From Amia ocellicauda (lineage: Eukaryota > Chordata > Actinopteri > Amiiformes > Amiidae): 64,000 nt of DNA. A model generated the notes under the pieces. That model did not search any database, was not told the DNA's origin, and worked only from the letters and a program-made list of their open reading frames with translations. Of this stretch, positions 11,872 through 64,000 are shown one piece after another (within the stretch, counting starts at the first letter, position 1; the number at the start of each line of letters is the position of its first letter). The position numbers and the translations under genes were made by a program. Location: NCBI RefSeq assembly GCF_036373705.1, contig NC_089858.1, forward strand, positions 33,258,249-33,322,248, written 5' to 3'.

Positions 11872-12480
11872 CTCCCCTGGAAGCTCCTGTCCAGCTCCAC
11901 AAACAGCCACACCTCTGCTCTGGCCCACAGTCTGGCACAGGGGCGGGGGTGTGAGATGAGACCATCGCTCACAAAATCTGTGCTTTATTATTGAATATTA
12001 ATTAAGCCCTCCGGTCCAGGTTGTCACAGTCGATGGTGTTGTGTTTAACAGCAGTTGCTTTTGACCTGCCTGTTCGGCTGCAGCTGGGGGCAGCTGGGAA
12101 AGTCCCGGTCGACATCCACTAGGTTAGCAGTTGGAGCGAGCTCAATAAAACGTATTTTAAAAAGAAAAGCCATATATTTGCATACATGGACCCACTTGCC
12201 AGAAGGATCAGAACTAACTGGATGTAACCCAGTGGAGATCAGAGCAGGATGGCGGGGCCCTGCTGCACAGGCCAGTCCAGCTGCTGCCATCGGCCACCAC
12301 TGATCTAAAGCGCACCTGCACCCCCATCCCTTCTTGCCTGGTAACTCTGCTCTTCTAGGCCCTGGATGGTAAGCTGCCGGTCCTGCCACAGCCGGCTGGC
12401 CTTGCCCCCCACCTGCCACAGCCGCTCCGACTCCTGGGGGGGAGAAGCTGTGACGCACAGAGACAGACACTTGCACTTGC
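11872..12480 (-). pseudogene. Remnant E: degraded two-MAM gene (two exon fossils)
   Basis: Two pieces match exons of the intact MAM genes further right. At 12433-12338, perhaps starting as far up as about 12470, the minus strand reads ESERLWQVGGKASRLW and continues to QSYQ; this aligns with exon 6 of copy B (W, GGK, W and Q-Y positions shared). It is followed by a GC dinucleotide (CAG|GCAAG) where a GT donor is expected. At 11933-11877 the minus strand reads LWARAEVWLFVELDRSFQ, matching exon 9 of copy B, but the following donor is GG. Exons 7, 8 and 10 are not found. This is the most diverged member of the family, so the loss is probably old. Confidence 0.6.
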
Positions 12481-12779
12481 CACACAAACACTCGCACTCA
12501 ACAGCACAATTACTGCTGGCACTATATTAGGACAGTTTATAAAGGAGTTGCACTCACTCTGGCCCTCCCAAAAATATTCTGTACGGGACGGCAGTCTGGG
12601 GCTTGTTGCACAGGGTACTGTCCTGGGGAGGGAGGGGTATTGTCTGAGAGTCCTACTGCTCAATTAAAACACTAGGTGGCATAGTCGTGCATTTTTAGTA
12701 ATTCTGCCAGCCAGATAGAAATCTACCCACTCACACATAGGCAGCAGACTGTGATATGACACCCGACTTGACTTGTATT

Positions 12780-12880
12780 ACTTTTTTTTTACTGTATGTT
12801 TACCACTCTGAAAAGCGCTCTGTGGCTACCCTGTGAAGGGCTCTATACAAATAAAAATAGTTTTATTGATTGATGTCCCC
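12780..12880 (-). repeat. Retroposon 3' tail ending in TTGAT repeats
   Basis: The sequence around GCGCTCTGTGGCTACCC, followed by a TACAAATAAAAAT-like tail and TTGATTGAT, recurs in inverted form at about 16765-16832. The repetition and simple-sequence end suggest a retroposon tail; the family was not assigned. Confidence 0.5.
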
Positions 12881-18122: not shown

Positions 18123-19330
18123 CTGTAGTATTCCCTATTGGAGTTTAAGTAAATGTTCTTACTACACTATTAATGTGTATGTGTCCTCTATACCTATATT
18201 CCGAGGCTCTCAATATATTCAGTGGTTGGAGTTGGGTTAATACTCCTTGACAAGTTCCGTTACTACTTTAGGATTGCGTTTCTGGCTACATTTAAAATCA
18301 AAACATATCGATCATTTAATAATTGTTGACAAAGTGCAAATAGGTGTCCAATGATTTATAAATAATTGATTGCTGAATGATTGTACCCTAATTGAAGTAG
18401 CTGTTTAGTAGGATCATGATTTTGCATACCATTGCATGAATGACACATCATTTATTATATTTATGATTAACAATCAAATGGTTCATTACTTAGAAACTAG
18501 TTGCTATGAATAAAGGTGCCATCAGTTGTCTTCTTATGAATGACTTGTTTGTCATTGAATCAGTGTTGCTGATGAAAAGTAGGCCCTTCATTACCAAACA
18601 CCAAGTAACTAAATTAGGATACAATTATGAGTCATTAGCAAACTGTTAGTTAAACATTAAACTGTTGGTTACTTTAAAACTAACCTTCATCTGGGTGATC
18701 ACAGGGATATGTGAATATTTGATCTGTTAACTGGTTGCATATGTCAGATTTATCACACGACTCGTTAGGCAGAGGAAAACTGTTGCTATCAAACATTGTC
18801 TACTTAATCAGCCGAGTCAGTTTACTGGTGAACTGATAGAGCAAATAGCCCAATAGAAGGAAGGTTTGCAAAGTGATCTCATGCTCCCTTGTTAAAGATT
18901 TTTTTAAATACAAAAATACAGTAGTTTATTTTTATACATGGTGTGGCTGCTATATTTTGTAGTTTATTTTGATACCAAATACACTTAAAATTAAGGTATC
19001 TTATTTTAAAATACATTGATGCATCTTTGTCCATCCCTGGTGCCAAGTTTGTTCTCACATGGAGCTCTCAGTCACTCCATCTGACTTCAGTCAAGCTTAA
19101 GAGGTGCCCTTTACAGCTGACCACTTTAGATGGAGATCTCATTTGGCTCCTTCATTGCTCCATTAGAAGACTAATCCCTCCCTCCCCCAGATTCAAATGA
19201 GCCTTCCCAACAGGCTGGCACTGACAATGTGCATCTCTCACCCAACACCTTCCAAAGGAGAAGCACACGGGTGGTTTAAGTTGTAAAAAGGTTTATTGGT
19301 TCCTGCAGGTTCACACACATCCTGCACAGC

Positions 19331-22300
19331 TCACTGCCCCCCACAGCGGCCCCTCGGAACCATGAGCTCATCCAGGGCTGCGTCACCACAGGGCTGCTCC
19401 CCCAGCAGTCCTTCCAGCACCAGCTTAGGGGGGCACAAAGAAAGAGAAGGTCAGTTCAATAGGTTTGCCATAGGAATGTAATTGTGACAGGGGGCTGATG
19501 CACATATTTAGGATTTAAGAGCGAGTCTGCATCCCCCACTAACCGGTAGAGGAATCCAAGCAGGGTTCGATGCAGTATCCGTACAGTCCATGCCCTCTCA
19601 CCCACACTTACCTGGAAGCTCCTGTCCAGCTCCACAATCAGCGGCACCTCTGCTCTGGCCCACAACCGGTACTGGAGCTCAGGGGTGTCCAAGAACAGCA
19701 CATACACACTAAGGGAGTCTGTGGGGGTTGGAAAAGAGAGGAGGGGACATTTGTAAACTACATAGCCCACAATACTGCATACAAGAACTAAAGTGTACTT
19801 GTAGAGGGAAATTCAGTTCCAGTGAAAAATAAAACCCAGTAGAGAAAACTTGGGATAAAACTTCATTGCGATAACGTACAATACACATTTAAAGGACAGG
19901 ATCTGCCACAGACAGGCGTCCACAGACCAGTGTGGGACCATCCGTCCTGAAGTACCTCACAGCTAATCCAGCTACTGCACAGAAACGTGTGCAGCTCTGA
20001 CTGGACCGGCCACAGGCTGCCATTTAAACCCCATTGTAAAAGACTACAGCGATGCAGGCCAGAACCCCCCAGACTTACCCACTCTATGGCCCAGCAGGCT
20101 GTACCAGAAGCTCAGGCACACAGAGCCACCGAGAGGGGGGCTCACCAGCCGCCTGCCCAGAGAGCTCCAAGTACTTCAGGTACACTGACAGGGAGTCTGA
20201 AAGTGAGAGAAGATGGACATCAGGGCCCAGTTTTTCAAACCTTTTCTGAAAGGATTTAAGTAAATCGGATTGGATAACATTTGAGAATTGGGTATTTCAA
20301 AACTGAAAAAGGAGATTCTGATCTTGGAGATTGGGATTTGGACCTGATAATCCAATCCTAACTTTAAATCAAGCTTAAAAGTTGTTTTGGGGTTTTTCAA
20401 AACTCAAGGGTGAGATAAGGATAGTTTTGATGTTGAAAATCAGGATAATCTTGACCACACTGGAAGGGTGGATTTAGACATTGTGATGTTACTACAGTGG
20501 GGAATCTTGGAAAAGATATACAACTTGACTATAAATCATAAATGGTACTTAAATGTTTACATTTGATTAAATTGACACAAGAAATAAGATGTTCCAATAA
20601 TTAACAAATGCCTCAATATATAAAACACAAATATAGCATTTAAGCAATGGAAAATCTGCAAAAAAACAAACGTCTAAAGTTCAATCGGAAAAATTAATCC
20701 CAGCATTTTGCAGTTGTTTTTGAAGACGACGAATGTGCAATTTTGCTTCTGTTGGAGCAAGGACAACTTGATTTACTCTTCAGTTAGATGAATCTGTTAT
20801 TTAGCTTTTTCAGTTTCCCTCTACACAAGTTCCCCATAAGCATCATTATTGTTTTTCTCAACATTTTTTCTTCTTTTGGGGGGTGGTTCTACCTCTGGAG
20901 TGTGAGGATCATCTGATTGTTGGGGTGTGCCACTAGCTGGTGGGTCTCCAGACTGTCTCCACAGGAGTTAGGATGATTGAGGTCAGGAGGTGGTCTTCTG
21001 ACTCATTAAGGGGATCAGAATCCCCAACATCATTCTCAGTCCCACAAAGCCCCGACTCCCCTTCTTGCAAGACAGATGAAGTGCCATGCAGAGCCTGAGA
21101 TCTTGGTTCACCAATGAGATCTGTGAATTCTCCTCGTTTGTGGGGCTTGTTCCTTGTTTTTGACTCACTGTGGTCTTTGGTAGCCTTCTGCTTTAAACTC
21201 TTCCACCATAATTTCACTTGCTCTACCGTTCACAGCTGACCAGTTCCTTTGGCATTAACATTACTGGTAATGTCAATCCAGATGCCATGCTTCATCTTGG
21301 CTGTCATTGGGGTTCGCTGACCTGAGGTGTTGAATGTGCCCATTAGGCTGTCATAATTGACCCGTACTCCTTCCAGTAGGGCATGCGTTTCCGGTGAAAT
21401 TGGTCCCCTTTGAGATAGTTGCTGGTACATCCATTTTATTTGTCTCTGCAGCTGTAACTGATTGTTTACATTGACATATGTTAAATCATGTTCAGGTGTC
21501 AAACCAGGAGAGGTTAACTGAGAAGTCTTTAAAGCAATTGTAGAAACAAGGGACCATTCCACAACAATGACATCCATTGTTCACCGTCTACAACACCACA
21601 GGAGAAGATATACCACAAGGGTTCACACTGAATTCCCTAAACCACTTGGAGTATACCTGCACGATTTAGATTTAGTCGGGAGGACATTGAGTTCATTAAA
21701 TATACTTCGACCGCATCTGGAACACACCACTCAAAGAGGTTATGCCTTGACTGTGAAGAACAGGTCCTTATGGCTTTGCGCTTTTATGCATGTGGAGCAT
21801 TTTACCAAGTAATTGGAGACAGTTTGCAACTCTGTAAATCCACAATCAGTTCTTTGGTACACAGAGTTTCCTCTGCATTGGGCAGCCTTGTCAGCCAGTA
21901 TGTTTCTTTTCCAACTAATCAAGAACATATCAAGACGTTCAAGCGCACTTTTGATTTGGGAAAAATGCCAAATATTATTGAAAGATTGCACCCATGTCCA
22001 CATCCAGGCACTCCATGAGAGGGAATGGGAGTTTGTGAACAGAAAGGGGTGGCACAGCATCAATGTGCAACTTGTGGGAGATACAGACCTCATCATCACC
22101 AACCACGTGGTGAAATGGCCAGGGTCTGTCCATGTCACACCAATTCAGAGGGAGAGTAATATTTTCCAAAGCTTTCAACAAAACCCCCCAGAGGGCATCA
22201 TACTAGGTGACAGAGTGTACCCACTCTTACCATGGCTAATGACACCTTTTGCCACAGCAAGCACCGATGCAGAGGAAAGATTCAACAGTGCCCATGGAAC

Positions 22301-24255
22301 AACCAGGAGCACAATTGAGCACCTGAATGGAGTGTTGAAGAAGCACTTTGCATGTCTGAACAACCTACACATGGATCCACTGCGAAATTCTCGCCTGTAT
22401 TGTCCTTTATAACATAGCTCAGACACACACAGTTCCTCTCCATCAGGACAGCGGTTATCTTCCACAGCCCCAAGTGGGTGGCCCTGACACACCACTGGCA
22501 GCAGTGCAGCCAAATGGACCAGCTGGAAGGTCAATGAGAGATGCTCTAGTGAACCTTTATTATCAAAAGGGTCCTTGAATTAATTAATAACAGTTTTCAG
22601 AGCAATGTGAAGTTGTGTTATTAATTATTTTTTATCCATTGAATTGAGTTGAATTTGGTCTATAAGTTCTTATGCATTTCATGTATGTATATGTGAATAA
22701 AAGTAACATACAAACTTTGTGCTACACTTTTTTTTAGTCTATTTAACTCATGTCTTTTAGACCTAACATGCTAAACAGAGGCCTATTCAAATCAGGATTC
22801 TGTAAACTTGATCTTGTGGTATCTGAATCAGAATGATTATCTGATTATTTTCTGAAAAATCAGCACAAAATCAGCAAGATTACTCTGATCCTGGATTGCA
22901 GAGAAGGGGATTACAAAATCTGGATCAGAATGATCAGAAGTTTTGAAAAACTGGGCTCAGGGTTCCAGTAGGGAATTAAAGGCAGGAGGCACATGAGAAC
23001 CCAAGTCAGAAGCTTGTTGACCAATAAGTTGAATTGCAATAGAGGACAACAGTTAAGGATTTGGATGCCATGTGTACCTGGAGCAAGGCAGCCGCTCCAC
23101 CCTCAGCTGGCCTCTGGCCTCAGCTCACTCACCCACTCCAGCCCCGAACACACTGTACCAGAAGGACAGGCAGGCCGCGCCAGTCAGCTCCTAGCTGCGC
23201 AGCTCTGCAGTGTAACCCTGGCTGTGCTGGTACGAGGACGTCATGTACAGGTACTGCCCTGTGAGTGACAGTGACCATGAGAACTGGAGGAAGAAGGCCC
23301 CAGGACAATGGTTTACATGGGTGAGGGAAACTAAAACATTTCCATCAACCAACAACTCTGGGCCATACCTGTTTTGTTGCGGCAGCCATCCTCCCCGCTG
23401 ACCACCGCTCCTTCGAAGGCATCCGGCCTCTCGCAGTGCAGCAGCCAGTCAGAGCGGCCCATCCCCGACTGAGTCCAGGCACACAGGTCCGTTTTAAAGT
23501 CACAGAAGAGGCTGTTCAAGGAGGCCAGCTGGAGATGGTCATGGGCACATCCATGGTGGGCACCATGTCCATGGTGGCCGCTCATCAGGGCAGAGCGCTT
23601 GGTGCCACCCGCAGTGGACTGGGGCAGCACAGCAGTGGTGTGGGGCTCAGAAGCAGTGGATTGCAGCTCAGTCGGATTCAGGGCGCTCACAGGCACTAGA
23701 GACTCGGCAGTCATAGTGGAGGGGCTATCTGTGGGCCAATCCACCAGCAGGGCAACGTTGCACTGGCCCAAGCTGGAGCCGTGACCCATGACCTGCTCCC
23801 CAGCGCCGCTCAGCTGGAAGAGTAGGTTGTCTGTGGGAGTTGAGGAGGGGAGAGATTGGGATTACAGACTTCATTTGACAGGCCAACTGCACCACTTGAG
23901 AAGAGAAGAGCATACCCCACCCATGGTCTCCCAGTCTCTACAGCACAAACTGCAGGAGGACCACTAGTGGGAGCAGCTCAGTAACCAATGGCTTGGATTG
24001 CAAAGGCAGTACATAGCACCATTTAGACGACCCAGTAGAACATCCCCTACACTCACTGAAGAGGGCATCATGGATGGCATCAATGGCCTTCAGGGCAGCA
24101 TGCAGGTCCTCAGGGCTGGGTGGGGAAGGCAGCATGCACGCAGGAATGGGGTTAGGTTAGAGTAAATTGAAGTGGGAAAGGATAAAGAAATCCACACTTA
24201 CCCCCTCCATTGAGCTGGGCCCTCCTGGAGACTCCATTCACAGGCAGGGCAGTCA
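19331..24255 (-). pseudogene. Copy A: inactivated two-MAM secreted protein gene
   Basis: Exons found on the minus strand, numbered after copy B: exon 2 24255-24202, exon 3 about 24110-24049, exon 4 23830-23369, exon 5 23258-23133, a fused exon 6/8 20196-20079, exon 9 19718-19612, exon 10 19423-19331. Lesions: (1) no signal-peptide exon is found upstream; (2) exon 3 lacks 28 bases near its 5' end relative to copy B, shifting the frame; (3) TAG replaces a Trp codon in exon 5 (23193-23191); (4) exon 6 runs straight into exon 8, deleting exon 7, with a shared GCTGGT at the junction (20149-20144), and a 2-base loss shifts the frame; (5) a 30-base in-frame deletion in exon 9. The RRAR site of copies B and C reads RRAQ here. 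A Harbinger element sits in the intron after exon 5. AATAAA lies at 19297-19292. Confidence 0.88.
20224..22957. mobile_element. PIF/Harbinger transposon inserted in an intron of copy A
   Basis: The ends are inverted copies (GGCCCAGTTTTTCAAA at the left and its complement with one mismatch at the right) flanked by the 3-base duplication CAG at 20221-20223 and 22958-22960. The matching intron of copy C reads GACATCAGGGTTCC without interruption near 59350, an empty site. The plus strand from about 21600 to 22412 encodes a HARBI1-like DDE transposase in three frames: MALRFYACGAFYQVIGD, then DCTHVHIQA with the first Asp, then LGDRVYPLLPWLMTPF and the final Glu region. The minus strand at 21577-20933 encodes a Myb/SANT-like partner with KMKHGIWIDITSNVNA. 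Frameshifts make the transposase inactive. Confidence 0.85.
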
Positions 24256-24735
24256 CTGTGGGAGAGGATAATTTGCTTGGGTACAACTTTTCAGGGGGGG
24301 GGGAAGAGAACACTGAAGGACTGGAGAGGCAGCATGGAGCCACCGCAGCCCTGCAATTTCAGCAGTCAGGTTAATGCAGGAGAGGAGTCGAGTAAAGCAG
24401 CTCAGGAGTGCCCCCACAATGCCAGGTGTGCAAGTAGTTGTGCATTTCTAAAACCACTCCTTCTCCAGGCAAGCGACACCCACAAGGATTCAAAATGCTG
24501 GCACTGGTCATCGTGTAACTGTCAATCATTGTATGCAGCCAACCACCTGCAGAAGGAACTGGTCAGTCATTTGCTATGTGGCCAATCACCTTTATTTATA
24601 AAAGATGGGAGAAGAGGGAACAAATGTGTCTCAGTGGCATGTTACTAACAAAGTGCTGTTAAATGGATAGTAAGTAGCTGGGAGGTTGTTAATCAGGAGA
24701 TGCAACTCCTGATAAAGTAGCAAGCTAGATTTACA

Positions 24736-25934
24736 ATCCAATGTGCCAACTGACTGGAAGACAGCAAATGTCAAACTAATCCACAAGAAAGGGGACAAAA
24801 CTGATCCAGGAAATTACAGACCAATCAGTCGCACCTGCATCACCTGTAAAATGTTGGAAAAAATGATTACACAGAAAATAGAGGAGCATCTTAATGAAAA
24901 CCATATTCTTGGAGATAATCAACATGGGTTTAGATGAGGCAGATCATGTCTTACTAATTTATTAGAATTCTTTTGAACACGCAACTGCAGCTGTAGATCA
25001 TGTGAAAGCATATGATATACTTAGATTTTCAGAAAGCTTTTGATAAGGTTCCACACCAAAGACTGATCCTCAAATTGGAGGCTGTAGGCATTTAGGGTAA
25101 TGTAAGTAGATGGATTATGAACTGGTTGATGTATAGGAAACAGAGGGTGTCGATTAGAGGAGTTGCTTCTAACTGGAGTGAGGTTGTTAGTGGAGTTCCA
25201 CAGGGATCAGTACTAGGGCCTTTGCTTTTTCTAATCTATATTAATGATCTGGACTCTGGGATAGGTGGCTGAGCAGATACAATCTCGGCAGCACAAGCTA
25301 TTCAAAGGGACTTGGATAATACTCAGTTGTGGGCCGTCACCTGGAAGATGAAATTCAATGTGGACAACTGCAAGGTATTACATGCAGGTAACAAAAATGT
25401 CCACTATAATTACACTATGGGAGGAATAGAACTAGATGAAGTAATGCATGAGAAAGACCTAGGAGTCTATGTGGACTCCTCACTTTCTCCAAGGAGCCAG
25501 TTCAGAGGAGAGCAACCAGACTTATTCCAGGTCTGAAGGGAATGTCCTACTGAGAGACTGAGGGAACTGAACCTGTTCACCCTGAGACTACGTGGGGACT
25601 TGATCCAAGTCTTCAAAATCATAAAGGGCATCAAGCACATCAAACCAGAGGAGCTTTTCCAGATCAGCAGGGACACACGGACCCGGGGACACAAATGGAA
25701 ATTGGGCTACAAGGCATTCAAAACGGAAAACAGGGCACACTTCTTCACACAGAGAGTTGTCACAATCTGGAACAAACTCCCCAGCAATGTGGTAGATGCT
25801 GAAAATTTGGGAACATTTAAAAATAGACTGGATAGGATCCTTGGATCATTTAGTTATTAATGGACACCAAATGAGCATGATGGGTCGAATGGCCTCCTCT
25901 TGTTTGTAAACTTTCTTATATTCTTATGTTCTTA
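24736..25934 (+). mobile_element. CR1-type LINE fragment inserted near copy A
   Basis: Broken plus-strand frames encode a non-LTR reverse transcriptase: GNYRPIS near 24815, FQKAFDKVPHQRL near 25030, [15 protein letters not shown] near 25190, and the 3' domain with RDTRTRGHKWKLGYKAF at 25670-25720. The segment that should hold the catalytic ADD motif is missing between DLDSGIGG and the following block, so there is an internal deletion. It ends with GGCCTCCTCTTGTTTG and a short ATTCTTATGTTCTT tail. Copy B at about 34870-34890 has the same flanks without the insertion. Confidence 0.8.
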
Positions 25935-28420
25935 ATGGGTTTGTTGCTGAAGTTAGCTGTAGGCAGGGCTAGTTTGACTGAAAAGCATGGGGGACTTCAT
26001 TATCGTCAGTGTTCTGAGCTAACTATTCTCCATTTCAGTTGAAGGTCTTGAGCTAGTTTAACCAATAGGATAGTGGAAGAATGTCTCTTTAGACAGGTGA
26101 CCCATCAGGAGTGAACAGAGGAGGGCCATCAGTCTCTCAGGGTTCTGCCTCTTTTGAAGGCTCTGCGTCTGCAGCCAATGGGAGTCAAAGCTCTGACTGC
26201 GGTCCAAATAGGGAGCAACTGTGCAGCCGCCAACATTCATATTCCTGGCTAACGGTCAACCATTTTGCTTGAGATTAAAAATACCTTGACAATTTAAAAT
26301 TTTACATTACAAATAAAAATTATGTAATCTGACAGACATAATCGTGGTTTACAGATCCCTTTTCAAGGAGAACCCTCATTACAATAATAGGTGCATTAAC
26401 GCGAGTTAAGCTCCGTTTGCACAATGTTCAGTTTTGATTTTAGAATTGATTTCTAGATTAAGAAGCGGGTCTTGTTTGGGATAAGATATGAAATGAAAAC
26501 TCGAACTGACTAAGACCGTTTCACTGCCACGCTCGCCTGCAGTCCCTGTCTGTGGCTGCGATGCTGCGATCCTTGCTTTCGCTGCCAGTTTCTTTGCTTT
26601 CGATTTTTTTTTTTTTTTCGTTTAGGAGTTTTGTCTGTTTTGTCGTGAGGGCGGGATTTACTGGGAGGCGTGGATCATGGGTCTACATTGGTCCAGTAGG
26701 TTTGAGTGACGGTTCTTCCTGACCCAATCAGTGAGCAGGGTGGGCTGGTCTGCAGAGATGCAGAAGTATAAATCAGCCTTGTCTGTGCTGTTGTGATTCA
26801 TTGTGGTCAGCAATGGACACATGTCCTGTATTTAACACTCCGACAATTTAAAAACTTCATGAAGTTGGAAAAAGAAATCTGTAAATTCTCAGAAATAAAT
26901 ACATTATGCCTTTGATTTGTAGAATACATTTGTGCAGACTCATACTCACGGTAGATTGATACCACTGCCTTATTTTTTCCTTAAAACATAAGTGCCACAC
27001 AATGTATATTAATCTACCCGTTTTAGTTATTTCACAAAGTCTAAAAGCAGTAGATATTAAGTAAATATGTGTTGAATAAAATGAAGGTGCATTGGTAATG
27101 ATTGAGAGGAAGTGCAGACAAAACACAAAGCAATATGAAGGGTTACCAATGCAGCCAAATGAACAAACTTCTGTTTCTTCTATGTAACGGCAGGGTAATG
27201 AGGGAATCTGAGGGACTTTGATTTTGGGGTAGACTGATTTTAATGGGTTTTTAGATGTACTTTAACATTATAAACCTCAAACTTAATGCGTGATGAATGG
27301 GAATCATGTATTTTACTGCACTGTATCAATACTGCAATATTTAAATGACGTATTCATTGTATGATGAACTTATTATTTAATGTTGTGACATGGTGTTCCA
27401 CTAAGATTGATTTAATTTGAATGAGTATTAAAGATTCTCACTGTACAAAATAAAAAGGGACACATTCCAAAAGTGAACGAGCTAGTGAAGTGCTAATACT
27501 ATTGCTTTTAATATTTGTAAATTGACAATCTGTGAGCAAAAATGAAACCTGCATATTTAGTCTTTTTTGGGAAGAATATGTGCCTCCCTCCCTTCAGCTT
27601 CATACTCTGCAGCAGACTGGAGCTGCTTCCCAGACTACAAAGGGATAAGGGGGAGGCTGGCAGTGAATGCAGGTGGCGGGTGGGTGGGATGGGGTCTATC
27701 TGTCCATAGTTTAGATTTTTCTGTATTGCAGTTTGTTTTGTTGGCATGTTTGCTTAACAACAAGTGTCACAGTGGCACGGTTGAAGATGCACACCCAATC
27801 AGACCACGCCAGCCCAAATTAATTTGTAGTGAGGAGGGGAGTGTGCATAGATGCACAATGGACACTCCAATATAAGCAGATATTTCTAACGTACAATTCA
27901 GCAATAGATCTGATTAGTAGGGCACGAAATCTGCTGTCAATGAATACAAATAAAAGAGGGGGGTTGGGGATTAAATATTCTAAAACTATAAACTGCTAAA
28001 GTCACCTTTAATGCTCTGGGTGATAAACGCTAAAACCATAAGTACAATTTATAAACTAAAACCTACTAAAAGCCTAAACCTAATCCCCCTTACTAAAACT
28101 ACAGTACATACAAATATAAATAAAAAGAATAAACGAAAGTTCACAGTTCAGAGCAATTGGAATCCGTTGAAGAGCATAAAGTCTCGATCCGTCTCTACCT
28201 TCCTACAGCCAGCCGGCTGCGCAGATCCAACTGTGCAGCGCTCCCTTCCTGCAGCTACAGCTTTCACTCCGTGGCAGTCAGTGGAAAAAGCAAAGAAAAC
28301 AGAAGGGGGGAAATCAGAATCAATGCACCCACTATCGTGATAACACTCCTTCTCCCCGACAACCGGAGTACGCCTGTGGACGTCACTTTCTTACCCCTTC
28401 ACTGCGTGTCTCTCCGGAGC
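25935..28420. other. Upstream flank of copy A and intergenic DNA
   Basis: From 25935 to about 26480 the reverse complement matches intron 1 of copy B (about 34340-34865). The block 26058-26240 is nearly identical to 34564-34746. The signal-peptide exon expected beyond 26.5 kb was not found. From 26.5 to 28.4 kb no gene or classified repeat is seen. Confidence 0.5.
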
Positions 28421-31034: not shown

Positions 31035-31920
31035 ACTTCAAGGGCTTCTTCTCGCTGTGGCCGCAGCTCTGTGTGAAGTCCCCGGGCCTGTGTGGGAACA
31101 GAGACCCCGAAACCGTCTGGACTGAGGAGACGCCCCCGCTGTATGAGCAGGTGACACAACAGCTACAGGAGCAAGAGCAAAATGAATGGCTCTAGTAGTA
31201 ACAGCAACAACAGTAGTAACAAGCAACTGAAAGTAGGAGTTGTAGTGGCAATAGTAGTAGAGATAGTAGTGATGGCTCTAGCAATGATAATACTTATAAC
31301 AGCAGTAGCTGCAGCAGTTCTACAGATTGCAAGAACAGCACTATTACTATTATTAATGAGTTGCCCTGCATTTTGATTGACAGGACGGCCCAGTGGAGCC
31401 CCTCCCCTTCCTGTTCCTGGGCAGCGCTCGTGACGCGTCGCAGTGGGAGGGGCTGGCGGGGCGGGGCATCACGGCGGTGCTGAACGTGTCGTCGCGCTGT
31501 CCCAACGTGTTCGAGGGGCGACTGGACTACCGCACCCTGCGCCTGGAGGACAGCCTGGCCACCGACCTCACCCCCACCCTGCCTCATGCCATCCGCTTCA
31601 TCGGTGAGGCCCTGGAGGGATGGGGATGGGGGGAGAGAGAGAGAGCGTGCTTGTTTAAAAGGCGGCTGTGTGCCCATGCCCTGACCCGTGCTCTCTGTGT
31701 TTCAGACTCTGTGCGGGAGCGTGGCGGCAGGGTGCTGGTGCACTGCCAGGCGGGCGTGTCTCGCTCGGCCGCGGTCTGTCTGGCCTACCTGATGGAGTCC
31801 AGGCGGCTGCCCCTGGCCGAGGCCCTGGCCTTCGTGAGGCAGCGCCGCGCCGCCGTGGCCCCCAACCTCGCCTTCATGGGCCAGCTGCTGCAGCTCGAGA
31901 CCCAGGGGCTGTGCCACTGA
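31035..31920 (+). CDS. DUSP2: Dual-specificity phosphatase DUSP2, exons 2-4 (partial)
   Basis: Three exons: 31035-31150, 31384-31603 and 31706-31920, with consensus splice sites and matching phases (1, 0, 1). The product is the C-terminal part of a nuclear MAP-kinase phosphatase of the PAC1 type. The first visible exon covers the linker after the rhodanese-like domain (DFKGFFSLWPQLC). The second starts the catalytic domain (GPVEPLPFLFLGS) and carries the Asp that serves as general acid in LEDS. The third has the active-site loop HCQAGVSRS (31741-31767), the HCX5R signature, and ends ETQGLCH, close to the end of mammalian DUSP2. The exon for the N-terminal kinase-docking domain is not recognised within the window upstream. 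It may lie farther away, be highly diverged, or be lost. ADRA2B on the same contig supports orthology. The 3' region has ATTTA motifs, as in unstable early-response mRNAs. Confidence 0.88.
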
Positions 31921-32506
31921 GAGAGAGCATTCAGAGACCGCTGCGAGGGGCTGACTGCCAGTTTCTGAACCTCCACACTCTGTCCCCAACAGTAACACTA
32001 AACTCTTGTACTGGGTTCCTACCTGAGCCAGTGAGGCATTAATAGAGCTCCTGTAATGTGGTCTGTTCCACAGCCTACACACACCTGATTTTATTTTTGA
32101 CTGTGAATCAAGAGCCTTAAAACTTCAGATTTGGGGTTTATGTTTCCACTGTGCTCAACTCAGCTTCACAGCTAAATACCAACCCGGTGGACTGACTGAC
32201 TTCTGCACACTTGAATCTTCTAGTGGTTTTCCAATGCATCCCAGCCATGTTTGTACTCAAGTATGGAAGAGGAGCATGCCATGTCCTCCATTTTTGTGGA
32301 GACTTTTTTTATTCAGTTTGTTTTTTTAAATTGTACATATGTATTTATTTCCTGATTTTAATTGTTTGGTTTTGCTCTGTTAGGTGTGTGAATGTGTTTA
32401 CGTCACTGCAGCTACTCTTGCATTGCACTGCACTTTATTTTGAAATGCAATCATGTTTTAACTGTAAATTTGTATATTTTATACTTATTAAAATGTTTTA
32501 ATATGA

Positions 32507-32512
32507 AATAAA
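32507..32512 (+). terminator. DUSP2 polyadenylation signal
   Basis: AATAAA about 590 bases after the DUSP2 stop codon, at the end of an AT-rich stretch typical of a 3' untranslated region. Confidence 0.7.
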
Positions 32513-32519
32513 GGCTCCA

Positions 32520-33800
32520 TTTATTATGTATCCAGGACTGTATACCAGACCTCACTACTTTACACCCCATTACAGTCTACACAACACCCTATAGTGCGTG
32601 TGGTTGGGGGCCCTGCTCGGATTCAACTGCCATCTCTTGGACACATCTCCAGCGCGCTGATGCCCACAGCCTCCCAGCAGGGTGACAAAACCACTATGCC
32701 AAAACACTGGTCCCCTGGTGTGGACGTTTAGTACACTGTACTCATTTCAGAGGGATTGCATCACTGTAAAGAGCTCATACACTGAGCCCAGAGAGGGATT
32801 ACATCACGGCAATGAGCTCATACATTGAGCCAGTGAGTCGCACAGCTGAGAGGTGCTGTGCTGTGCTGAACCCGCAACAAGGCTGGCGCATCTCTGAGAA
32901 AACACCAGCGACAAAGTTAGAAAACGGCGTCCAGAATCGAAACGTGTCAGAAATAGCCAATACCATTTCTGTATCAATCAAATCCGTGCTATTTTTGAAA
33001 AGCTTATTTCACTCGTATATAAGTATTATACAACCCGATTAACACACTTTTTATATACGACTGAATTTACCTTGTCAAATTTGTACTATAATTATTAATA
33101 ACAATGGGGATAAAAATAATATGCAAATACGGGCAGCATAAGAACAAGTCTATAGGACAGCCAGGAAGTCAATGAACAAGTTAAGCTTGAATTGTTTTCT
33201 CCATTTCTGATCTTTATTAAACATATTTCTCTATGATATTTTTGTGTAATTGTCTCGCAGTATTCATCTCTTCTAAGATATGATTTCTTGTTCCGCCGGC
33301 TGTGTTTAGATATTGAAATAAACATCTGTTGCCTCGTTAAAATGACACGCCATACATGCTGTTGAGCTCAGGTCGTGTATTGTTTGTGTAGCCTATGTTT
33401 TAACCGTGTTTATGCCTTTATGCATGTATTTTAAAAATAATGTTCAAAATGTTGTGGAGCTTTCTTCCTCGTAATCAGTACGTAAGTGGTTTCAAAGCAA
33501 CCGGACCTCAGTGATGCACGTCCAATGATTAACAGTGGTTTTGAAACAACGTTGGCGTATAGATCTAGTACTAGTACTACTACTAATAAATATAATGATT
33601 CTGGATGTTTTAATATTCCCAGTGTGTGAAGCTACGTGTTCTCCTTTGCAGGTTCTGAATAAATTAACAAAGAAGAAATTGAGAAAAAAAGTCATACAAT
33701 CATTCAATACGAGCTAAGAAAGAAAACAATGCAGCGGGACATCAGGATCAGTAGGCAAGCCAATTAACTAATTAACGGGTTAATTACCTCAGGTGCGGGC
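32520..33800. other. 5' flank of copy B, duplicated upstream of copy D
   Basis: No exon is seen. Blocks at 32780-33000 and 33530-33720 recur in the same order at about 39715-39940 and 40730-41050, upstream of the copy D exon. This shows that the copy B promoter region was duplicated in tandem. Confidence 0.65.
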
Positions 33801-33811
33801 GGGCTGTGTTG

Positions 33812-42158: not shown

Positions 42159-42678
42159 GTGAGTTCGAGTTGTACTTTTTAGGTTTTTAGTTTTCTTGAT
42201 GAAAGCTATACTAAAAGCTGCTGTGACGATGTATGCAGCACTGTTTTCTGAACATAAGGCAATGAAGCAGCGTTTGCGCCAACCAGACCATCACAGTGCT
42301 GCGCAAAGCCCTGTAGGACATTTTGTAACCACCCTTCCAAGCTTGTTGTATTGAATATTTCAACAGATGGCACAGGTTTTGATGGTGGTTGAGTTTTGGC
42401 CGATTACTGTTCTTTGTTATAGTGTTTCAGTCCGTGGCCTAGCCAGGAATTCGCGGAGGGATCAGGCAGATTTTGACTCAAACGTATCTTTGCTTCACAA
42501 CCAGTATTACTATGGCACACATCCAGTGGAAAAAATAAATGAATCGCACATCAGCCGACATTATGCAGACAAACAATAGCGGTTTCTGGTGCTTGCCAAT
42601 CCGATCCATTTCGGTGGAGCTCTGAAATTGAACGGGTGATGATGCACAACTCTGGATTCCTGCGCCTGCTAGAAATGT

Positions 42679-42845
42679 GGGGGCCCCAAGCAAAATAAAT
42701 TCCTGATGGTGAAGCCGTGGGGGGGGTTGGGTGTGCGGCGGAGTTTTCTTCCGTGAGAGCAGGGGGGTTCCCATTTGGGGTGGCCCCCCCTCAGCCTGGG
42801 GCCCCAGGCAATTGCCTAGGATGCCAACCCCTTGTGACGCCCCTG
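42679..42845. mobile_element. Truncated hAT-like MITE in the left palindrome arm
   Basis: Inverted counterpart of 62481-62670. One end (GCGTCACAAGG type) is intact. The other has been removed by a deletion whose ends share ATGTG. Confidence 0.65.
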
Positions 42846-44102
42846 GGTATGCGAGTACATTACACGTGACATAACCCTCAGAAAAAAAAAACCTATATAA
42901 GGCCTTCAGCATCAAAACATGAGTCCAAATTTCAGTGGGTAACGCATTGCTAGGGCGACTAAATTGCCTGAGGTTTGCAGTGTGAATCTCAAGTGGGGAG
43001 CTCTGTCTTTATTTTTCCAGCTTTTTCTTATTCTCGTTTCCGACCACTTAAAGTAAACTCATCTCCTACAGTTCTTCAGCTATCTAAATGACACGGTGTC
43101 CATTTTTTGTACTATTTCTGAAAATGGTTGCTACTACTTTTGGTACTGATTGGTCATCCATATTCTCCTGAGGCCCTCTATGACCCCAAAACTTAACCGC
43201 TAATAAATATTGATAGGTTACGTTTAGCACAATTTACAATTGAACACTAATAGGAAATCCTAGATCTTCTTTCTGATCATGTCATTACTTCTGACCGTTG
43301 ACCTTCTCTGGGCCAGATACGGCAGGTTGGCAATGTTCAGTATCTGAGGACACATTCTAACATCTCATTACTACTTTTAAGGATGCTTTTATCCGTCATG
43401 TTACTATTGAGCATTGATGGGGAAACTGTATGAAGATAGTCCCATTTAGTATTGGACATGTATAGGAAACCATAAGTGGTCTATTTGAAAATGTAAAAAG
43501 CAAGATTTTTTTACTTTTACCTCTATAATGCCTCACAGAGAGGAAATAGGCCTTTTTGTCTATATGGAACATGATCTTTGACCTTTCCTTCAAGGTCAAA
43601 TTCACTATGAGAACTAATGAGCACGTTCTTTTGGTTATTATGAGCTTCTAAGCCGAAGGACATTCTCGCGGACAATGATGTATGTCACCTGCGCTGTACT
43701 ACCAATGACCTGTTTCCACTGCTCCCTGGTGCTAATTGTTTTCCCTTGAGCGCTTTAAATGGGGCATGTGGCGCAGAGAAGGAGAGCTTCATTTCCATCG
43801 AGACGCGGACGAGAGAGCAGGACTGCGAGTCAGCCGGGCGCAGGGAGCTGCTGGGAGAGAGACGCCGCGTTAGGGGAACCGCAAGACCATGCGAGCGAGA
43901 GACTGAGCAGCGCGTCCAGCCAGGAGAGAGACTGGGAGACACGCCTGAGTCAGAAGGCGTACAAAAGATAAGTGCGGGGTTCTTTTTGCCTTGCGATAGT
44001 AGTGACAGACCGTGATGCGAGAGTCACTACTGCAGGAAGTGTGATGGAAACCTTTATTGTACTGAGGTCTGTGTTATAACATGAACTAATCAAAATGCAG
44101 AT

Positions 44103-57324: not shown

Positions 57325-60300
57325 TCACTGTCCCCCACAGCGGCCCCTCAGAACCATGAGCTCATCCAGGGCTGCGTCACCACAGGGCTGCTCCCCCAGC
57401 AGTCCTTCCAGCACCAGCTTAGGGGGGGAACAAAGAAAGAGCAGGTCATTTCAAGTAATTAGCGGACTGAATACTGCAAAGCTCCCAGTCACAGTCCATG
57501 CCCTCTCGCCCACACTAACCTGGAAGCTCCTGTCCGGATCCACAAACAGCGGCACCTCTGCTCTGGCCCACACCCGGGCAATGGAGCCCTGCCTCTCCCA
57601 CAACCTGTACCGGAGCTCAGGTGTGTCCGAGAACAGCACATACACACTGAGGGAGTCTGTGGGGGGTGGGAAAGAGGAGAGGACATTTGGAAACTACACA
57701 GCCCACAATACTGCATACAAGAACTGAAGTGTACTTGTAGAGGGAAATGCAGTTCCCAATGAAAAATAAAACCGAGTAGAGAACACTTAATTGCAATAAT
57801 GTACAATACACATTTAAAAGGACAGGATCTGCCACAGACAGGGGTCCACAGACCAGTGTGGGACCACCCATCCTGAAGTACCTCACAGCTAATCCAGCTA
57901 CGGCACAGAAATGTGCAGCTCTGACTGGACCGGCCACAGGCTGCAGTTTTAACCCCACTGTAAAAGACTGCGGTCATGTAGGCCGGAGCCCGCCAGACTT
58001 ACCCACTCCCTGGCCCAGCAGGCTGTACCAGAAGCGCAAGCACACCGAGCCACTGAGTGGGGGGCTCACCAGCACTGCCCGGTCACCTGTCTTCCTGGGG
58101 GAGATCGCTTCAATGTACAGGTACTGTCCTGAGATGGGGGTGGAGAGAGGTAGTTAGAAGATCAGTTCCCAAACCCCCACCCTACAAAGTTCTGGGGGAG
58201 ACGCAGCAACACCAGCACAGCCCACTCTAGGCACCTGCAGGGTTTGAGACAAAACCCAAAGCAGGGATGGAAACCCAGCCCACCACCCCAGGGCAGTCCC
58301 GTACCTCCCAGGTTTCTGCAGCCAGCCCCGCTCTCGCGCACTCCTGCCGTCAGCTCCCTCTCCCGGTGCAGGCGCCAGTCGAAGTCATCACCCTGGAACT
58401 GGGTCCAGCCGCATAGCGAGGACTCAAAGCTGCAGTACAGCAGCACAGAGCCAGGGGGAGCAGAGGTGGCATTGCCCAGTCTGGCAGTGGTTAGCAGGTG
58501 GGTGGCAAGGTTGGCAGTGACTGAAGCAGTGCCATTTTCAGAGGCAGGGAAGTTACCCCCATTGGCAGTCATGGAAGGGGCACTTGTAGCAATGTAAACC
58601 TCACTGGCAATCATAGAAGGGGTAGGAAAGTTACCCCCATTGGCAGTCGTGGAAGGAGCAGTGGTAATGTAAACCTCACTGGCGATCATAGAAGCGGTAG
58701 GGAAGTTACCCCTGTTGGCAGTAGAAGGAGCAAGGGTAGTGATGTCAGTCTGTGTGGTGGCTCCAGACTGTAACACACTGGCACAGGGCTGGCCCCAAAT
58801 CTCCAGGTCATCCAGTGCAGCATTGCCACAGCAACCATTGCCAATGGTACCTATAAACACCACCTGAAAAGATGGCATTTGTTCATTTACACCCAGACTT
58901 GGAGATCACTGTGTCCCCCACAGCCCAGCACTCTGCTATAGAGCTGCCACATGTGGAAGCAAGGAGTCAGTGGGACACTCCCCCAGTTGGCCAACAGCCT
59001 TTCAAAATGGACACCAGCTCCAACACCCAAGACTACCACCACCACAAACCATAGCAATGCACCAAGACTAGTAGGCTGGACAGAGCTGGGGGGGCTTCTG
59101 CAGATAAACAGGGAGTCTATTAGAGTCACTTTGGATCAACAGACCAGACAGAAGCAATGGAAGAGCTGGGCAGGCAGACGGCCCATCACTCACCTGGTAT
59201 CTCTGTGCCCCGGTGACTGCCAGATCCAGAGTCTCCAGGTACCACTGCCGGGTCTCCTTGCCACCGTCAGACCAGACCAGCTGCCTGCCCAGAGAGCTCT
59301 CCGAGTACACCAGGTACACTGACAGGGAGTCTGAGAGGGAGAGAAGATGGACATCAGGGTTCCAGTTAGATCATAGAGTACCTCCAGTAGGGAATTAAAG
59401 GCAGGAGGCACATGAGAACCCAAGTCAGACACTTGTTCACCAATAAGTTGAATTGCAATAGAGGACAACAGGTAAGGATTTGGATGCCATGTGTACCTGG
59501 AGCAAGGCAGCCACCCCACCCTCTCTCAGCTCACTCACCCACTCCAGCCCCGAACACACTGTACCAGAAGGACAGGCAGGCTGCGCCAGTCAGCTCCCAG
59601 CTGCGCAGCTCTGCAGTGTAGCCCTGGTTGTGCTGGTACGAGGACTCCATGTACAGGTACTGCCCTGTGAGTGACAGTGACCATGAGAACTGGAGGAAGA
59701 AGGTCCCAGGACAATGGTTTACAAGCAGAGAAACTTAGAAATCAATTTCTATTAACCAACTATACTGGACTACCTCCACCACACCACCAAAATACCAGCA
59801 TGACCCCACAGTGGCAGTCCAGCCCAGTGCTAGTCCGTACCTGCTTTGTTGCGGCAGGCATCCTCCCCGCTGACTGCCGCACCCTCGAAGGCATCCAGCC
59901 TTTCGCGGTGCAGCAGCCAGTCAAAGCGGTCCGTCCCTGACTGAGTCCAGGCACACAGGTCCATCTCAAAGCCACAGAAGAGGCTGTTCAAGGTCGCCTG
60001 GAGGCGGTCATGGGTGTGCCCATGGTGGTCACTCACGGAGGCAGAGGTGGACTGGAGCTCAGAAGCAGTGGATTGCAGCTCAGTCGGATTCGAGGCCCTC
60101 CCAGGCCCTGGAGACTGGGCAGTCGTAGTGAAGGGGCTACCTATGGGCCAATTCACCAGGGAGTAAGTGCGAGTCTGCTCAGCTGTCACTGGGATACTCT
60201 GTCTCCAGCACACCAGTAGAGGAAGTCATGGTAGAGTTGAGGGAGAGATGGCTACAGTAGTATTAGAGGAAAGCCCATGCCCTGTCCCCCAGTGCTAGGG

Positions 60301-63300
60301 CACATGCAGCATGCACACAGGAAGGGGGTTAGGTTAGAGTAGAACAAAGTGGGAAAGGATAAAGAAACCGATACTTACCTCCACTGAACCGGGCCCTCCT
60401 GGAGCCTCCATTCACAGGCAGGGCAGTCACTAGGGGGATGGGGGGGCAAGAAAGAGGAGAATTGCATTGTGTACAAACATGAAGGGGGAATTGCTCAATT
60501 AAATTTCAGCAGTCTGGTTATTGATGCAGAAGCTGTGTCCAGTAATGTAGCACAGAGCTCAGGAGTGTGTGCCCTCCCACACCACCCTTAAAAAGCACCC
60601 TTAACCACTTTAGCTCCAGATGAAAAAAGTAAAACCTTTCCCCAGGTACCCAATTTAAAAAATGATAATGTTTAAACATGAAATTGCTTTAAAATGTAAA
60701 TATGGGGGGAAAAAAAAAAACTAAATGCATTTTCCATTAACCCTTTACGCTCCTGTGTACTACATATCCATGTTTAGTAAAAAGAGTTTTCTTCAAGTGA
60801 AGAAACCCTATGCAAATGCCATATAAATAGCTTTTTAGTTAATTATACTTTATAAATGATTTTTTGTAATAAAAAAAAAATCACAGTAAAGTTAAAATAA
60901 ACCACTGAAATAAAATAGGCAATACATTGGAACCAGTGGCGAATTTGTGGGGAGGTGGGCATGGCAATTAAAACTAGATTTAGAAGTTTCTGGAAACTTC
61001 ATCTGTATTGTAAAACTGCCATTTTAAGACCATTTAAAAAGGAGTATCCAATGAACATAAGCAGTTCAGCATGTTACATATTTTAAACTGTAGCTTTAAA
61101 GCAACTTGATTTCTCATTCTTCCACAGAAGAGCTCATTACAGGAAGGTCAAAGGTCATCATACATGGTTTCCTACGTGATCCATAGTAAGGATGAGCCTT
61201 ACTGCACTCTAAGGTGTTAGGAGCCAGTTCTCAGTTTGACCTTAAGGAGAGGTCAAAGGTCACAATGGAGGACATTTTCAAACAGACCACATACGAGTTC
61301 TATATCAAATCATTAGCCCATCTACATTCTTTAGGGCAATATAAGCAGTTGTAGGCATTGACTACTAAGGAGAGGTCAAAGGTCAAAATGAAGATGCTTG
61401 GACTGTTTTAGAAGTGAACATACGATGTTCATTAAAAACCGGAAGTCAGAACCTCAACGCCAAGCTCAAAAAAAAAAAAAAAAAAGTTTTTTTTAAATAC
61501 TCAGTGAATTTTACCTTGAAGGAAAGTTCAAAGATCAAATTCAGGGGCATATTTTGAAACCCCATGCATGGTTTCCTATACATGTTCCATATAGACCAAA
61601 AGGCCTATTTCCTCTCTGTGAGGCATTATAGGAGGTAAAAGTAAAAAGCAAGATTTTTTTACATTTTCAAATAGACCACTTATGGTTTCCTATACATGTC
61701 CAATACTAAATGGAACCATCTTCAATCAGAAAGCAATTAGGCAAAACAATTGACCTTTGAACCCTGAAGGAAAGGTCAAAGTTCAAACACATTTGGGCCC
61801 CTATGACATGATTCATGGTGACTTTGCAAGCTGTAACCCTGAAATGCATGAAAATCTGACCTTGAAGGAAAGGTCAGAAGTCAACTTGAAGGTCATGCAC
61901 AGATAAAGCCCATATGGTTTCCTATACATGTTCTATGCTCAATAGTAACATGACAGATAAAAGCATCCTTAAAAGTAGTAATGAGATGTTCAGTATCCGA
62001 GGACACGTTCTAACATTGCCAACCTGCCGTATCTGGCCCAGAGAAGGTCAACGGTCAGAAGTAATGACATGATCAGAAAGAAGATCTAGGATTTCCTATT
62101 AGTGTTCAATTGTAAATTGTGCAAAACGTAACCTATCAATATTTATTAGCTGTTAAGTTTTGGGGTCATAGAGGGCCTCAGGAGAATATGGATGACCAAT
62201 CAGTACCAAAAGTAGTAGCAACCATTTTCAGAAATAGTACAAAAAATGGACACCGTGTCATTTAGATAGCTGAAGAACTGTAGGAGATGAGTTTACTTTA
62301 AGTGGTCGGAAACGAGAATAAGAAAGCTGGAAAAATAAAGAAACAGAGTAATAAGATCTGCATTTTTCAATGCAGATAAAAAAATAAAAATAAAAACCAC
62401 AGACCGAGCTCCCCGCTTGAGATTCGCACCCCCCCCCCCCCCCCCCGAGGGTTATGTCACGTGTAATGTACTCACATACCCAGGGGCGTCACAAGGGGGT
62501 AGGCATCCTAAGCAATTGCCTGGGGCCCCAGGCTGAGGGGGGGCCACCCCAAATGGGAACCCCCCCGCTCTCACGGAAGAAAACTCTGCCGCACACCCAA
62601 CCCCCCCCACAGCTTCACCATCAGGAATTTATTTTGCTTGGGGCCCCCACATACCCTAGAATCGCCTCTACACATACCATACCAATTATGAGTGCAACTG
62701 GAATGATCATTCAGGGGTTAAGACTACTCAAAACATACTTGCACTCCACTATGAGTGAAGGCTTTATGGTCTAGCGCACCTGTATAAAGACCTCAAACTA
62801 GTGCGTGTTGATTTTATGGATGAATTCGGGCGTCACAACAGGAGACTTGCAGTCACCTAGAAACTCCTACATCAGCGGCGGAACTGCCGATTTCCAATGA
62901 AGACGCACATTTCTAGCAGGCGCAGGAATCCAGAGTTGTGCATCATCACCCGTTCAATTTCAGAGCTCCACCGAAATGGATCGGATTGGCAAGCACCAGA
63001 AACCGCTATTGTTTGTCTGCATAATGTCGGCTGATGTGCGATTCATTTATTTTTTCCACTGGATGTGTGCCATAGTAATACTGGTTGTGAAGCAAAGATA
63101 CGTTTGAGTCAAAATCTGCCTGATCCCTCCGCGAATTCCTGGCTAGGCCACGGACTGAAACACTATAACAAAGAACAGTAATCGGCCAAAACTCAACCAC
63201 CATCAAAACCTGTGCCATCTGTTGAAATATTCAATACAACAAGCTTGGAAGGGTGGTTACAAAATGTCCTACAGGGCTTTGCGCAGCACTGTGATGGTCT

Positions 63301-63472
63301 GGTTGGCGCAAACGCTGCTTCATTGCCTTATGTTCAGAAAACAGTGCTGCATACATCGTCACAGCAGCTTTTAGTATAGCTTTCATCAAGAAAACTAAAA
63401 ACCTAAAAAGTACAACTCGAACTCACCGCTCTGGAGGCACAGCGCCGACAGCAGGAGCTCCGCCATCCCCAT
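57325..63472 (-). CDS. Copy C: secreted protein with two MAM domains, intact
   Basis: Nine exons on the minus strand: 63472-63427, 60429-60379, 60188-59841, 59664-59539, 59330-59194, 58863-58305, 58128-58003, 57656-57520, 57417-57325. Total 1623 bases, 540 residues, all phases agree and no stop is met. The exon equivalent to exon 3 of copy B is missing; exon 2 joins exon 4 in frame through an acceptor at 60190-60189. Order: signal peptide (MGMAELLLSALCLQS), RRAR at 26-29, a short Ser/Thr-rich region, MAM1 (about 101-262), a linker enlarged by 45 residues relative to copy B, MAM2 (about 377-537), then the stop. No membrane segment follows MAM2, so secretion is inferred. Intron 1 is about 3 kb and filled with repeats. 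It shares promoter-proximal sequence with copy B, so coexpression is plausible. The start of exon 4 was chosen by phase; an upstream acceptor would read into stops. Confidence 0.8.
61145..62057 (+). repeat. Degenerate repeat cluster with AGGTCA direct repeats
   Basis: AGGTCAAAGGTCA occurs exactly at 61145-61157, 61250-61262 and 61373-61385. Close variants lie at 61773-61785, 61871-61883 and 62045-62057. The pieces are embedded in repeated phrases such as ATGGTTTCCTATACATG, so the cluster looks like a decayed minisatellite. It lies in intron 1 of copy C. Confidence 0.75.
62481..62670. mobile_element. hAT-like MITE with perfect 8-base target duplication
   Basis: A 190-base element starting CAGGGGCGTCAC and ending CGCCTCTA, with CACATACC directly outside both ends (62473-62480 and 62671-62678). 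Confidence 0.8.
62855..63135. repeat. Dispersed repeat R1, copy 3
   Basis: Shares CATCAGCGGCGGAA, TTTCCAATGAAGACGC and CATTTCTAGCAG with 13740-13990 and 45950-46205. The palindrome partner is at 42440-42675. Confidence 0.6.
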
Positions 63473-64000
63473 TGCGCGCAGCGACATAAAGGAGGAAAAA
63501 GAAGCCGGTTTTTGTGTACTCGATCGTACTTCTCCAATCTTAAAATATCACAACCCAAAACATCTAGAGTGCCTTCCCACTGGGCCATTTTAGAGAGCTC
63601 AGCCTGCCGCCCACCTGAGTGCAGCCCCTGTAATTAAACCGTTAATTAGTTAATTAGCTCATTGGCTTGCCGACTGATCCTGATGTCCCACTGCATTTTC
63701 TTTCTTAACTAGTGTTGATTTATTGTATGACTTTTTTTTCTCAATTTTGTCTTTCATTGTTAATTTTTTGAGAGCCTGCAAATGAGAGTACTTTATGTAG
63801 CTACACACAGGGAATATTAAAATATCCAGAATAATTAGATTAATTGTAGTAGTACACAGTATAGATCCTAAATGCAGCAATATAACCAATACTAACGATG
63901 ATTGTTATTAACATTAGTGTCCGTTCTGATGGGTCTCTTGGGACACAGTCCATTTTAAACTGGACTGCGCTCAATCTACAGACGTTGACTTCCTTTTGAT

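Follow-up and report, generated by a model that had tools for sequence, protein, structure and literature searches.

The window analysed here, a stretch of 64,000 nucleotides of the Amia ocellicauda genome (C9:33258249-33322248, where C9 is contig NC_089858.1), contains a group of related genes and gene remnants whose predicted products are secreted proteins with two MAM domains. In addition, 60 kb leftward and 80 kb rightward of the window were read. Positions given without a contig are in window numbering, which is counted from the window start and continued past its right edge. The array comprises at least seven traces, named the fossil, A, B, D, C, F and G, which are spread over ~0.28 Mb of C9. 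Three of these genes, B, C and G, are apparently intact. A preliminary description of the window had counted five traces of one family, two of them intact. All five are present at or near the places proposed, and B and C are indeed open when spliced, but the real total is at least seven and a third intact gene, G, lies outside the window.

The extent of the array was obtained from a whole-genome search with protein C, which also led to G. This search gave 34 matches, 28 of which fall within C9:33.277-33.546 Mb (0.27 Mb), while the remaining six, located outside C9, have sequence identities of 35-48%. All genome searches reported here refer to this one genome, and the ~134 kb separating the right flank from G were covered by the protein search alone. 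No viral relatives were found in viral_contigs, where two peptide patterns matched 74 stretches, with 0 confirmed. A literature search on fish MAM and zonadhesin-like genes and on ADRA2B-DUSP2 synteny found no publication on this array.

Structure of the intact genes

Gene B (33964..39203, plus strand) has 10 exons, modelled from splice signals, and encodes 741 amino acids that include both domains, MAM1 and MAM2. Exons 1 to 5 consist of segments 33964-34021, 35356-35409, 35504-35590, 35773-36756 and 36882-37007, and exons 6 to 10 of segments 37203-37339, 37725-38148, 38288-38413, 38777-38913 and 39111-39203. The gene is flanked by a TATAAA at 33812 and an AATAAA at 39257. Its mucin-like part contains 5.2 copies of a 105-bp (35-residue) tandem repeat (35890..36432, plus strand), for which the protein alignment gives no aligned counterpart in C or G.

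Gene C, also modelled from splice signals, runs on the minus strand (63472-57325) and encodes 540 amino acids, again with MAM1 and MAM2, in 9 exons; it has no counterpart of B's exon 3. Exons 1 to 5 correspond to segments 63472-63427, 60429-60379, 60188-59841, 59664-59539 and 59330-59194, and exons 6 to 9 to segments 58863-58305, 58128-58003, 57656-57520 and 57417-57325, with an AATAAA behind the gene at 57291. The linker between MAM1 and MAM2 of C holds a 75-bp tandem repeat of 2.3 copies (58546..58722, given without strand). In the models of B and C, all exon borders are GT/AG and there are zero internal stops. Gene G (C9:33540885-33545570), ~219 kb beyond the right window edge, has 10 exons and 599 amino acids and is free of stops. 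In all three genes, a stop codon and then an AATAAA follow shortly after MAM2. Pairwise divergence among B, C and G is ~3-16% in most of the compared segments; for two segments, the exon-2 stretch and intron 9, C differs from the other genes by 27-28%.

Two further features of these genes were noticed. The motif RRAR is found at residues 30-33 of B and 26-29 of C, just past the predicted signal peptide, and is RRAQ in G; it is possible that propeptide cleavage at this site was lost in G. By-eye comparison also showed that ~27 bp of intron 5 of G (~7126-7152 of L033, the stretch read around G) resemble the reverse complement of the B and C sequence, a probable micro-inversion.

Predicted domains and secretion

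The Pfam family MAM (PF00629, cut-off 26.4 bits) matches two stretches in B (185.7 bits) and two in C (201 bits), and G aligns to both of these stretches when compared with B and C. Besides MAM, the Pfam scan of B and C gave one weak match only, to DUF5556. Within the family, the identity between MAM1 and MAM2 is 41-45%. Among PDB entries, protein C matches by sequence the MAM domains in MDGA1, scavenger receptor C, neuropilin-1, RPTP-mu, enteropeptidase and meprin.

The leaders of the three proteins are hydrophobic, with 19-residue means of 1.58-1.74. Past residue 30 the highest 19-residue mean is 1.23, and by this measure that part contains no strongly hydrophobic segment or membrane anchor. 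Since there is a hydrophobic leader and no other strongly hydrophobic segment, secretion of the products of B, C and G is likely. In the predicted layout, the leader would be followed by a mucin-like stretch that contains His and varies in length, then by MAM1, a linker bearing two or three N-glycosylation motifs, and MAM2. The preliminary description of a local two-MAM family with a signal-peptide-like leader, undergoing birth, death and repeat change, is thus borne out by the gene models, Pfam and the genome search.

MAM domains serve in adhesion or multimerisation in several solved proteins. Judged by their domains, the array products may act as extracellular adhesive or multimerising glycoproteins, in which the MAM pair would be the working part and the N-terminal stretch a variable spacer. 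In one study, zebrafish zan and salmon zlg, which are MAM and mucin genes, are expressed in the gut and not in the testis (PMC1325057), and a later one suggests that such fish genes serve mainly as gut mucins (PMC9275260). From these published genes, a secreted glycoprotein of epithelial mucus or matrix is the favoured role, and such a tissue is tentatively proposed here as possible rather than probable.

Pseudogene A and the remnants

Gene A (19067..26452, minus strand), which matches B piecewise, is a pseudogene, as had been proposed. It has a TAG in exon 5, exons 6 and 8 are fused with exon 7 absent, and it carries an insert with a transposase frame (Pfam DDE_Tnp_4); the protein search found no exon 1. 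The 3' part of A is nearest to C and G (distances of 0.033 and 0.046, compared with 0.126 to B), while its exon-2 stretch is equally near to B and G (0.084 and 0.086).

D (40788..43606, plus strand) corresponds to the front of a C-type gene, with exon 1 and with parts of the promoter and of intron 1. Its exon 1 begins at 42113, the start codon is replaced by AGG and ~115 bp of the leader are missing, as counted by eye against C. D is therefore a lone first exon, as first described, and one that lacks a start codon. The fossil (11877..11936, minus strand) is a remnant of exon 9, which shares 18 of 20 residues (90%) with B, a match better than chance (E = 8e-5 in a search of the 64 kb); the earlier sighting of this trace was correct. 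F, the sixth MAM remnant, lies outside the window between C and an apparently complete DUSP2; what remains of it is exon 10 together with parts of introns 8 and 9.

DUSP2 copies and the inverted repeat

The DUSP2 sequence in the window (31036..33021, plus strand) is a 5'-truncated copy, composed of part of exon 2, the catalytic exons and the 3' flank. Its start at 31036 falls inside exon 2, and the first exon is absent. A DUSP2 gene that appears complete is located 5-7 kb beyond the right window edge, on the minus strand and beside F. Its exon 1, which has a start codon and is of the rhodanese type, lies at ~71346-70945 and is followed by the exon-2 piece and the catalytic exons; the gene was read from these pieces rather than from a full splice model. 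The Pfam family Rhodanese gives 19.7 bits on this exon, under the cut-off of 22.2. In inverted alignment, the window copy is 99.2% and 98.8% identical to the outside gene. A genome DNA search with the complete DUSP2, in which 40 of 116 candidates were scored, returned the gene itself, a 1150-bp window copy (99%) and a 107-bp exon-1 fragment (95%) located ~2.2 kb upstream of exon 1 of G. The other 88 of the 91 matches are short, or have at most ~78% identity over more than 100 bp. The array had been described as wrapped around DUSP2. This is unsupported, because the window copy is truncated, and the apparently complete gene lies outside the window in inverted orientation. A and B, on the minus and plus strand respectively, do exist on the two sides of the window copy, but their reading as an inverted pair flanking DUSP2 is weakened, as the 3' part of A is nearest to C and G and the DUSP2 between them is itself a copy.

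The truncated DUSP2 is the start of a long inverted repeat. The left arm (31036..43606, plus strand) contains the DUSP2 copy, B and D; the right arm, which runs from 69873 down to 61503, contains DUSP2, F and the 5' part of C, and its in-window part corresponds to 61503..64000 on the minus strand. Along the mirror the identity is ~99% in DUSP2, ~86-88% between B and F with gaps counted, and, piece by piece, 90-99.8% between D and C. The arms also differ by insertions and deletions. The palindrome reported for D and C is real, but it is only a part of this repeat: a D/C palindrome standing alone was rejected, as the mirror runs on through F and DUSP2. A single recent inverted duplication is likewise insufficient, since the identity of the arms spans ~86% to 99.8%.

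A Tc1-type transposase frame, open over 345 residues, is found at 50787-51824 on the minus strand, and a 98.5% identical copy of this element lies at 66438-67669, between the complete DUSP2 and F.

Mosaic relationships among the copies

Over exons 4-10, the pairing of B, C and G changes from exon to exon (chi-square p = 2.5e-5). Exon 7 has 39 sites that support B with G and 4 that support C with G, while in exons 8-10 the support is 5 and 18 sites, respectively (Fisher p = 2.3e-8 for a grouping of exons that was picked after the whole-gene run data were seen). Segment distances follow the same pattern, with 0.033 for B-G in exon 7 and 0.032 for C-G in exon 8. In the last exon and 3' part, the distance is 0.033 for A-C and 0.065 for B-F. 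A run test over the whole gene (448 sites) gave 187 runs against a shuffled mean of 293, with 0 of 5000 shuffles as low; restricted to exons, it gave 86 runs against 102.6, with 14 of 5000 shuffles as low. The closest relative therefore switches along the gene beyond chance expectation, as in an array with gene conversion.

The strongest similarity between two members is a block of 1,266 bp (32828..34093, plus strand) that runs from the end of the DUSP2 3' flank through the promoter and exon 1 of B to 72 bp into its intron 1. It recurs gap-free and 100% identical ahead of G at C9:33539749-33541014, 249 kb from B. Outside the block, B and G differ by 3-15% across the compared segments. Segments were transferred from copy to copy, probably by gene conversion, and such transfers would give both the differing closest relatives by exon and the identical promoter and first exon of B and G. 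For the block itself, conversion bounded by insertions, recent insertion of a copied promoter and assembly error can each explain its origin. The sequence to its left ends, 17 bp before the block, in CCCCTG, a motif that resembles the end of a hAT element; on the right side, a search found no matching element end.

An assembly artefact, in which the DUSP2 repeats, the palindrome and the exact B/G block would be misplaced or duplicated haplotype sequence, is suggested by the 100% identity over 1,266 bp at two places 249 kb apart, with abrupt edges, and by DUSP2 copies that are ~99% identical. We regard it as unlikely. B, C and G are ~3-16% apart in most segments, and C 27-28% in the exon-2 stretch and intron 9; the arms are inverted and differ in inserts and deletions. 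Furthermore, the sole run of N in C9:33198249-33402248 lies at 101874-101947, ~30 kb away from where the arm ends in DUSP2, and there is no N in the 15 kb read around G.

The promoter and the signal-peptide exon could form an exchangeable cassette that moves among the array members, an idea that we offer as plausible but short of probable. The exact promoter and exon 1 of B would then have been given very recently to the body of G (exons 2-10), or the reverse, and a few cassettes, of a B/G and a C/D type, would be reassorted with diverging bodies, with DUSP2-linked copies as templates.

Selection and variable parts

The ratio of non-synonymous to synonymous substitution rates (dN/dS) was estimated by Nei-Gojobori counting with our own script and bootstrap intervals; with three sequences, its power is low. 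For MAM1 and MAM2 together, dN/dS is 0.33 (0.20-0.56) for B-C, 0.33 (0.19-0.56) for B-G and 0.39 (0.22-0.65) for C-G. Before MAM1 it is 0.55-0.75, and in the linker 0.15-0.71. Exon 1 gives 1.38 for both B-C and C-G over 15 codons only; for exon 9 by itself, the B-C ratio is 1.9 (interval 0.3-3.2). Before MAM1, G has 18 His residues, B 11 and C 4, and the fraction of S, T and P in this part is 0.34 in B and 0.36 in C. The MAM pair is constrained while the N-terminal part is loose, and there is no firm sign of positive selection among B, C and G; for the MAM domains, positive selection is unsupported.

The preliminary description had likened the locus to rapidly evolving reproductive or immune-surface genes, and had proposed the comparison of B with C as a check. 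The MAM values obtained, including that of B and C, speak against rapid evolution of the protein as a whole. That the array consists of such genes under positive selection is, in our judgement, rather improbable, if a little less so than an artefact: the turnover in copy number, the length changes of the N-terminal part and linker, and the values of exons 1 and 9 are in its favour, but dN/dS is low in the MAM domains and below one before MAM1, and zan and zlg, in the study cited above, are expressed in gut rather than testis.

Model for the growth of the array

We consider it probable that the locus is a local multigene MAM array, in part recently rearranged, in which a DUSP2-linked unit was multiplied and in part homogenised, and whose genes encode secreted glycoproteins. 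The ancestral unit would have consisted of DUSP2 and, behind it, a two-MAM gene, and segmental and inverted duplications would have multiplied it. As the left block starts in one gene and ends in another, it is taken as the derived copy. This derived inverted block would reach from exon 2 of DUSP2 to intron 1 of the second MAM gene, and it would carry a DUSP2 without its first exon, the intact gene B and, as D, the front part of a further MAM gene. The source arm, at the right window edge and beyond, would have kept the apparently complete DUSP2 and an intact C, with its middle MAM gene mostly lost (F). We infer this order of duplication events from the arms. The growth of the array is ordinary family turnover, with some unusually exact copying among members.

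Some observations weigh against this model. B and F, in the middle of the repeat, are only ~86-88% identical, flanked by DUSP2 at ~99% and by C and D at 90-99.8%, and arms this uneven can be dated to a single duplication only if conversion or replacement followed it. Both edges of the B/G block meet non-homologous sequence, which simple conversion inside a longer homology does not predict. The whole-gene run statistic comes in part from clustered differences, for example 21 sites in 30 bp of intron 5, which resemble a micro-inversion and coincide with the ~27 bp of G described above; such clusters inflate it, and the weaker exon-only test is thus the safer one. Finally, S, T and P make up no more than a moderate fraction (0.23) of the N-terminal stretch of G.

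If the proposed structure is true, the locus is a compact and well-preserved case of a secreted-protein family growing beside a conserved gene. The truncated DUSP2 passengers serve as markers of duplication events, and the presence of exact and diverged stretches within the same genes makes duplication, conversion and decay separable. It also calls for caution: what looks like "DUSP2" in such a stretch can be a copy without its first exon, and one window may leave out both the real gene and a large part of the array.

Neighbouring genes and other observations

The left neighbour of the array is an alpha-2 adrenergic receptor frame (4177..6306, minus strand; Pfam 7tm_1), taken as ADRA2B. Its best PDB match is an alpha-2A/2B chimera with 460 bits, followed by alpha-2A with 455, and the label 2B is preferred to 2A on the basis of this small margin and of the neighbouring genes. 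Further leftward, PCNA is matched, as is a GPAT-type acyltransferase, the latter below the family cut-off; to the right, a prenylcysteine lyase and an LSM-domain gene are among the neighbours. No match to the astacin signature was found in the 64-kb window. Genome-wide, ASTL was looked for by astacin matches in six frames (60 of 60 candidates scored), of which there are 31, the nearest on C9 ~6.5 Mb away; the statement that ASTL is not seen in this slot is thereby confirmed.

A list of human genes at 2q11.1 names ADRA2B, ASTL, DUSP2 and GPAT2, and none named MAM in the excerpt of this source, which is an alphabetical list for a genome-wide association study (GWAS) locus and not a synteny map (PMC7338361). 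This list bears on a further explanation, that an old conserved vertebrate gene has recent local copies here and that the family is not lineage-specific. The well-formed ten-exon structure and the constrained MAM domains would suit such a gene; the nearest other MAM sequences in this genome, just 35-48% identical, and the human list would not. We hold an old gene to be a real possibility, if not a likely one.

Some observations lie apart from the array. The whole-genome Pfam search for MAM, made exon by exon with 150 of 170 candidates scored, gave 75 matches; none of the array's exons is among those listed, so this search undercounts. Among the 75, 34 lie at C2:36.49-36.77 Mb, all on the minus strand within ~0.28 Mb, as a much larger MAM array or a giant gene. 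At C20:6.794-6.822 Mb, near MAM matches, there are four equal-scoring VWD matches with a spacing of 7.55-7.61 kb, which probably mark a zonadhesin- or FCGBP-like gene that has recently undergone tandem amplification. In the window, segment 28422-28555 consists of 7.9 copies of a 17-bp unit with 100% match.

Comparison with known systems

The array genes are MAM proteins; they are not zonadhesin-like, meprin or MDGA genes. Zonadhesin and the zonadhesin-like proteins (ZAN, zlg) also combine MAM and mucin-like stretches in one protein, with a domain order that is altered among the fish genes (PMC1325057). This combination could indicate that the array consists of broken-off front parts of such a MAM-mucin-VWD gene. 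Against this, no VWD match lies on C9 among those listed from the whole-genome search (154 matches counted, 150 of 246 candidates scored), and B, C and G end with a stop and AATAAA close after MAM2, making this origin very improbable. VWD and MAM matches occur together elsewhere, at C7:43.70-43.73 Mb and C20:6.79-6.85 Mb. Unlike in the zonadhesin-like proteins, the mucin-like stretch of the array precedes MAM1 and the proteins are much shorter (540-741 amino acids).

The best solved match of C is the MAM domain of MDGA1 (PDB 5oj2), which aligns to MAM2 with E = 7.2e-19. MDGA proteins are GPI-anchored and have Ig domains, whereas B and C have no Ig domain by Pfam and no hydrophobic tail. Meprins share the same Pfam MAM family, and the match to meprin beta falls on MAM1. 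They are described as proteases of the astacin type that also have a MATH domain and a membrane region (PMC4545420); the array proteins have no MATH domain by Pfam and no membrane segment, and there is no astacin match within ~6.5 Mb of the window.

With respect to its organisation, the locus is closest to a general phenomenon, that of birth-and-death arrays with gene conversion between inverted arms. With these it shares intact, truncated and fossil copies, an inverted repeat and patchy identity. It differs from the usual arrays of this kind in that its copies carry fragments of DUSP2, an unrelated neighbour, and in that two distant members share an exact block of promoter and exon 1.

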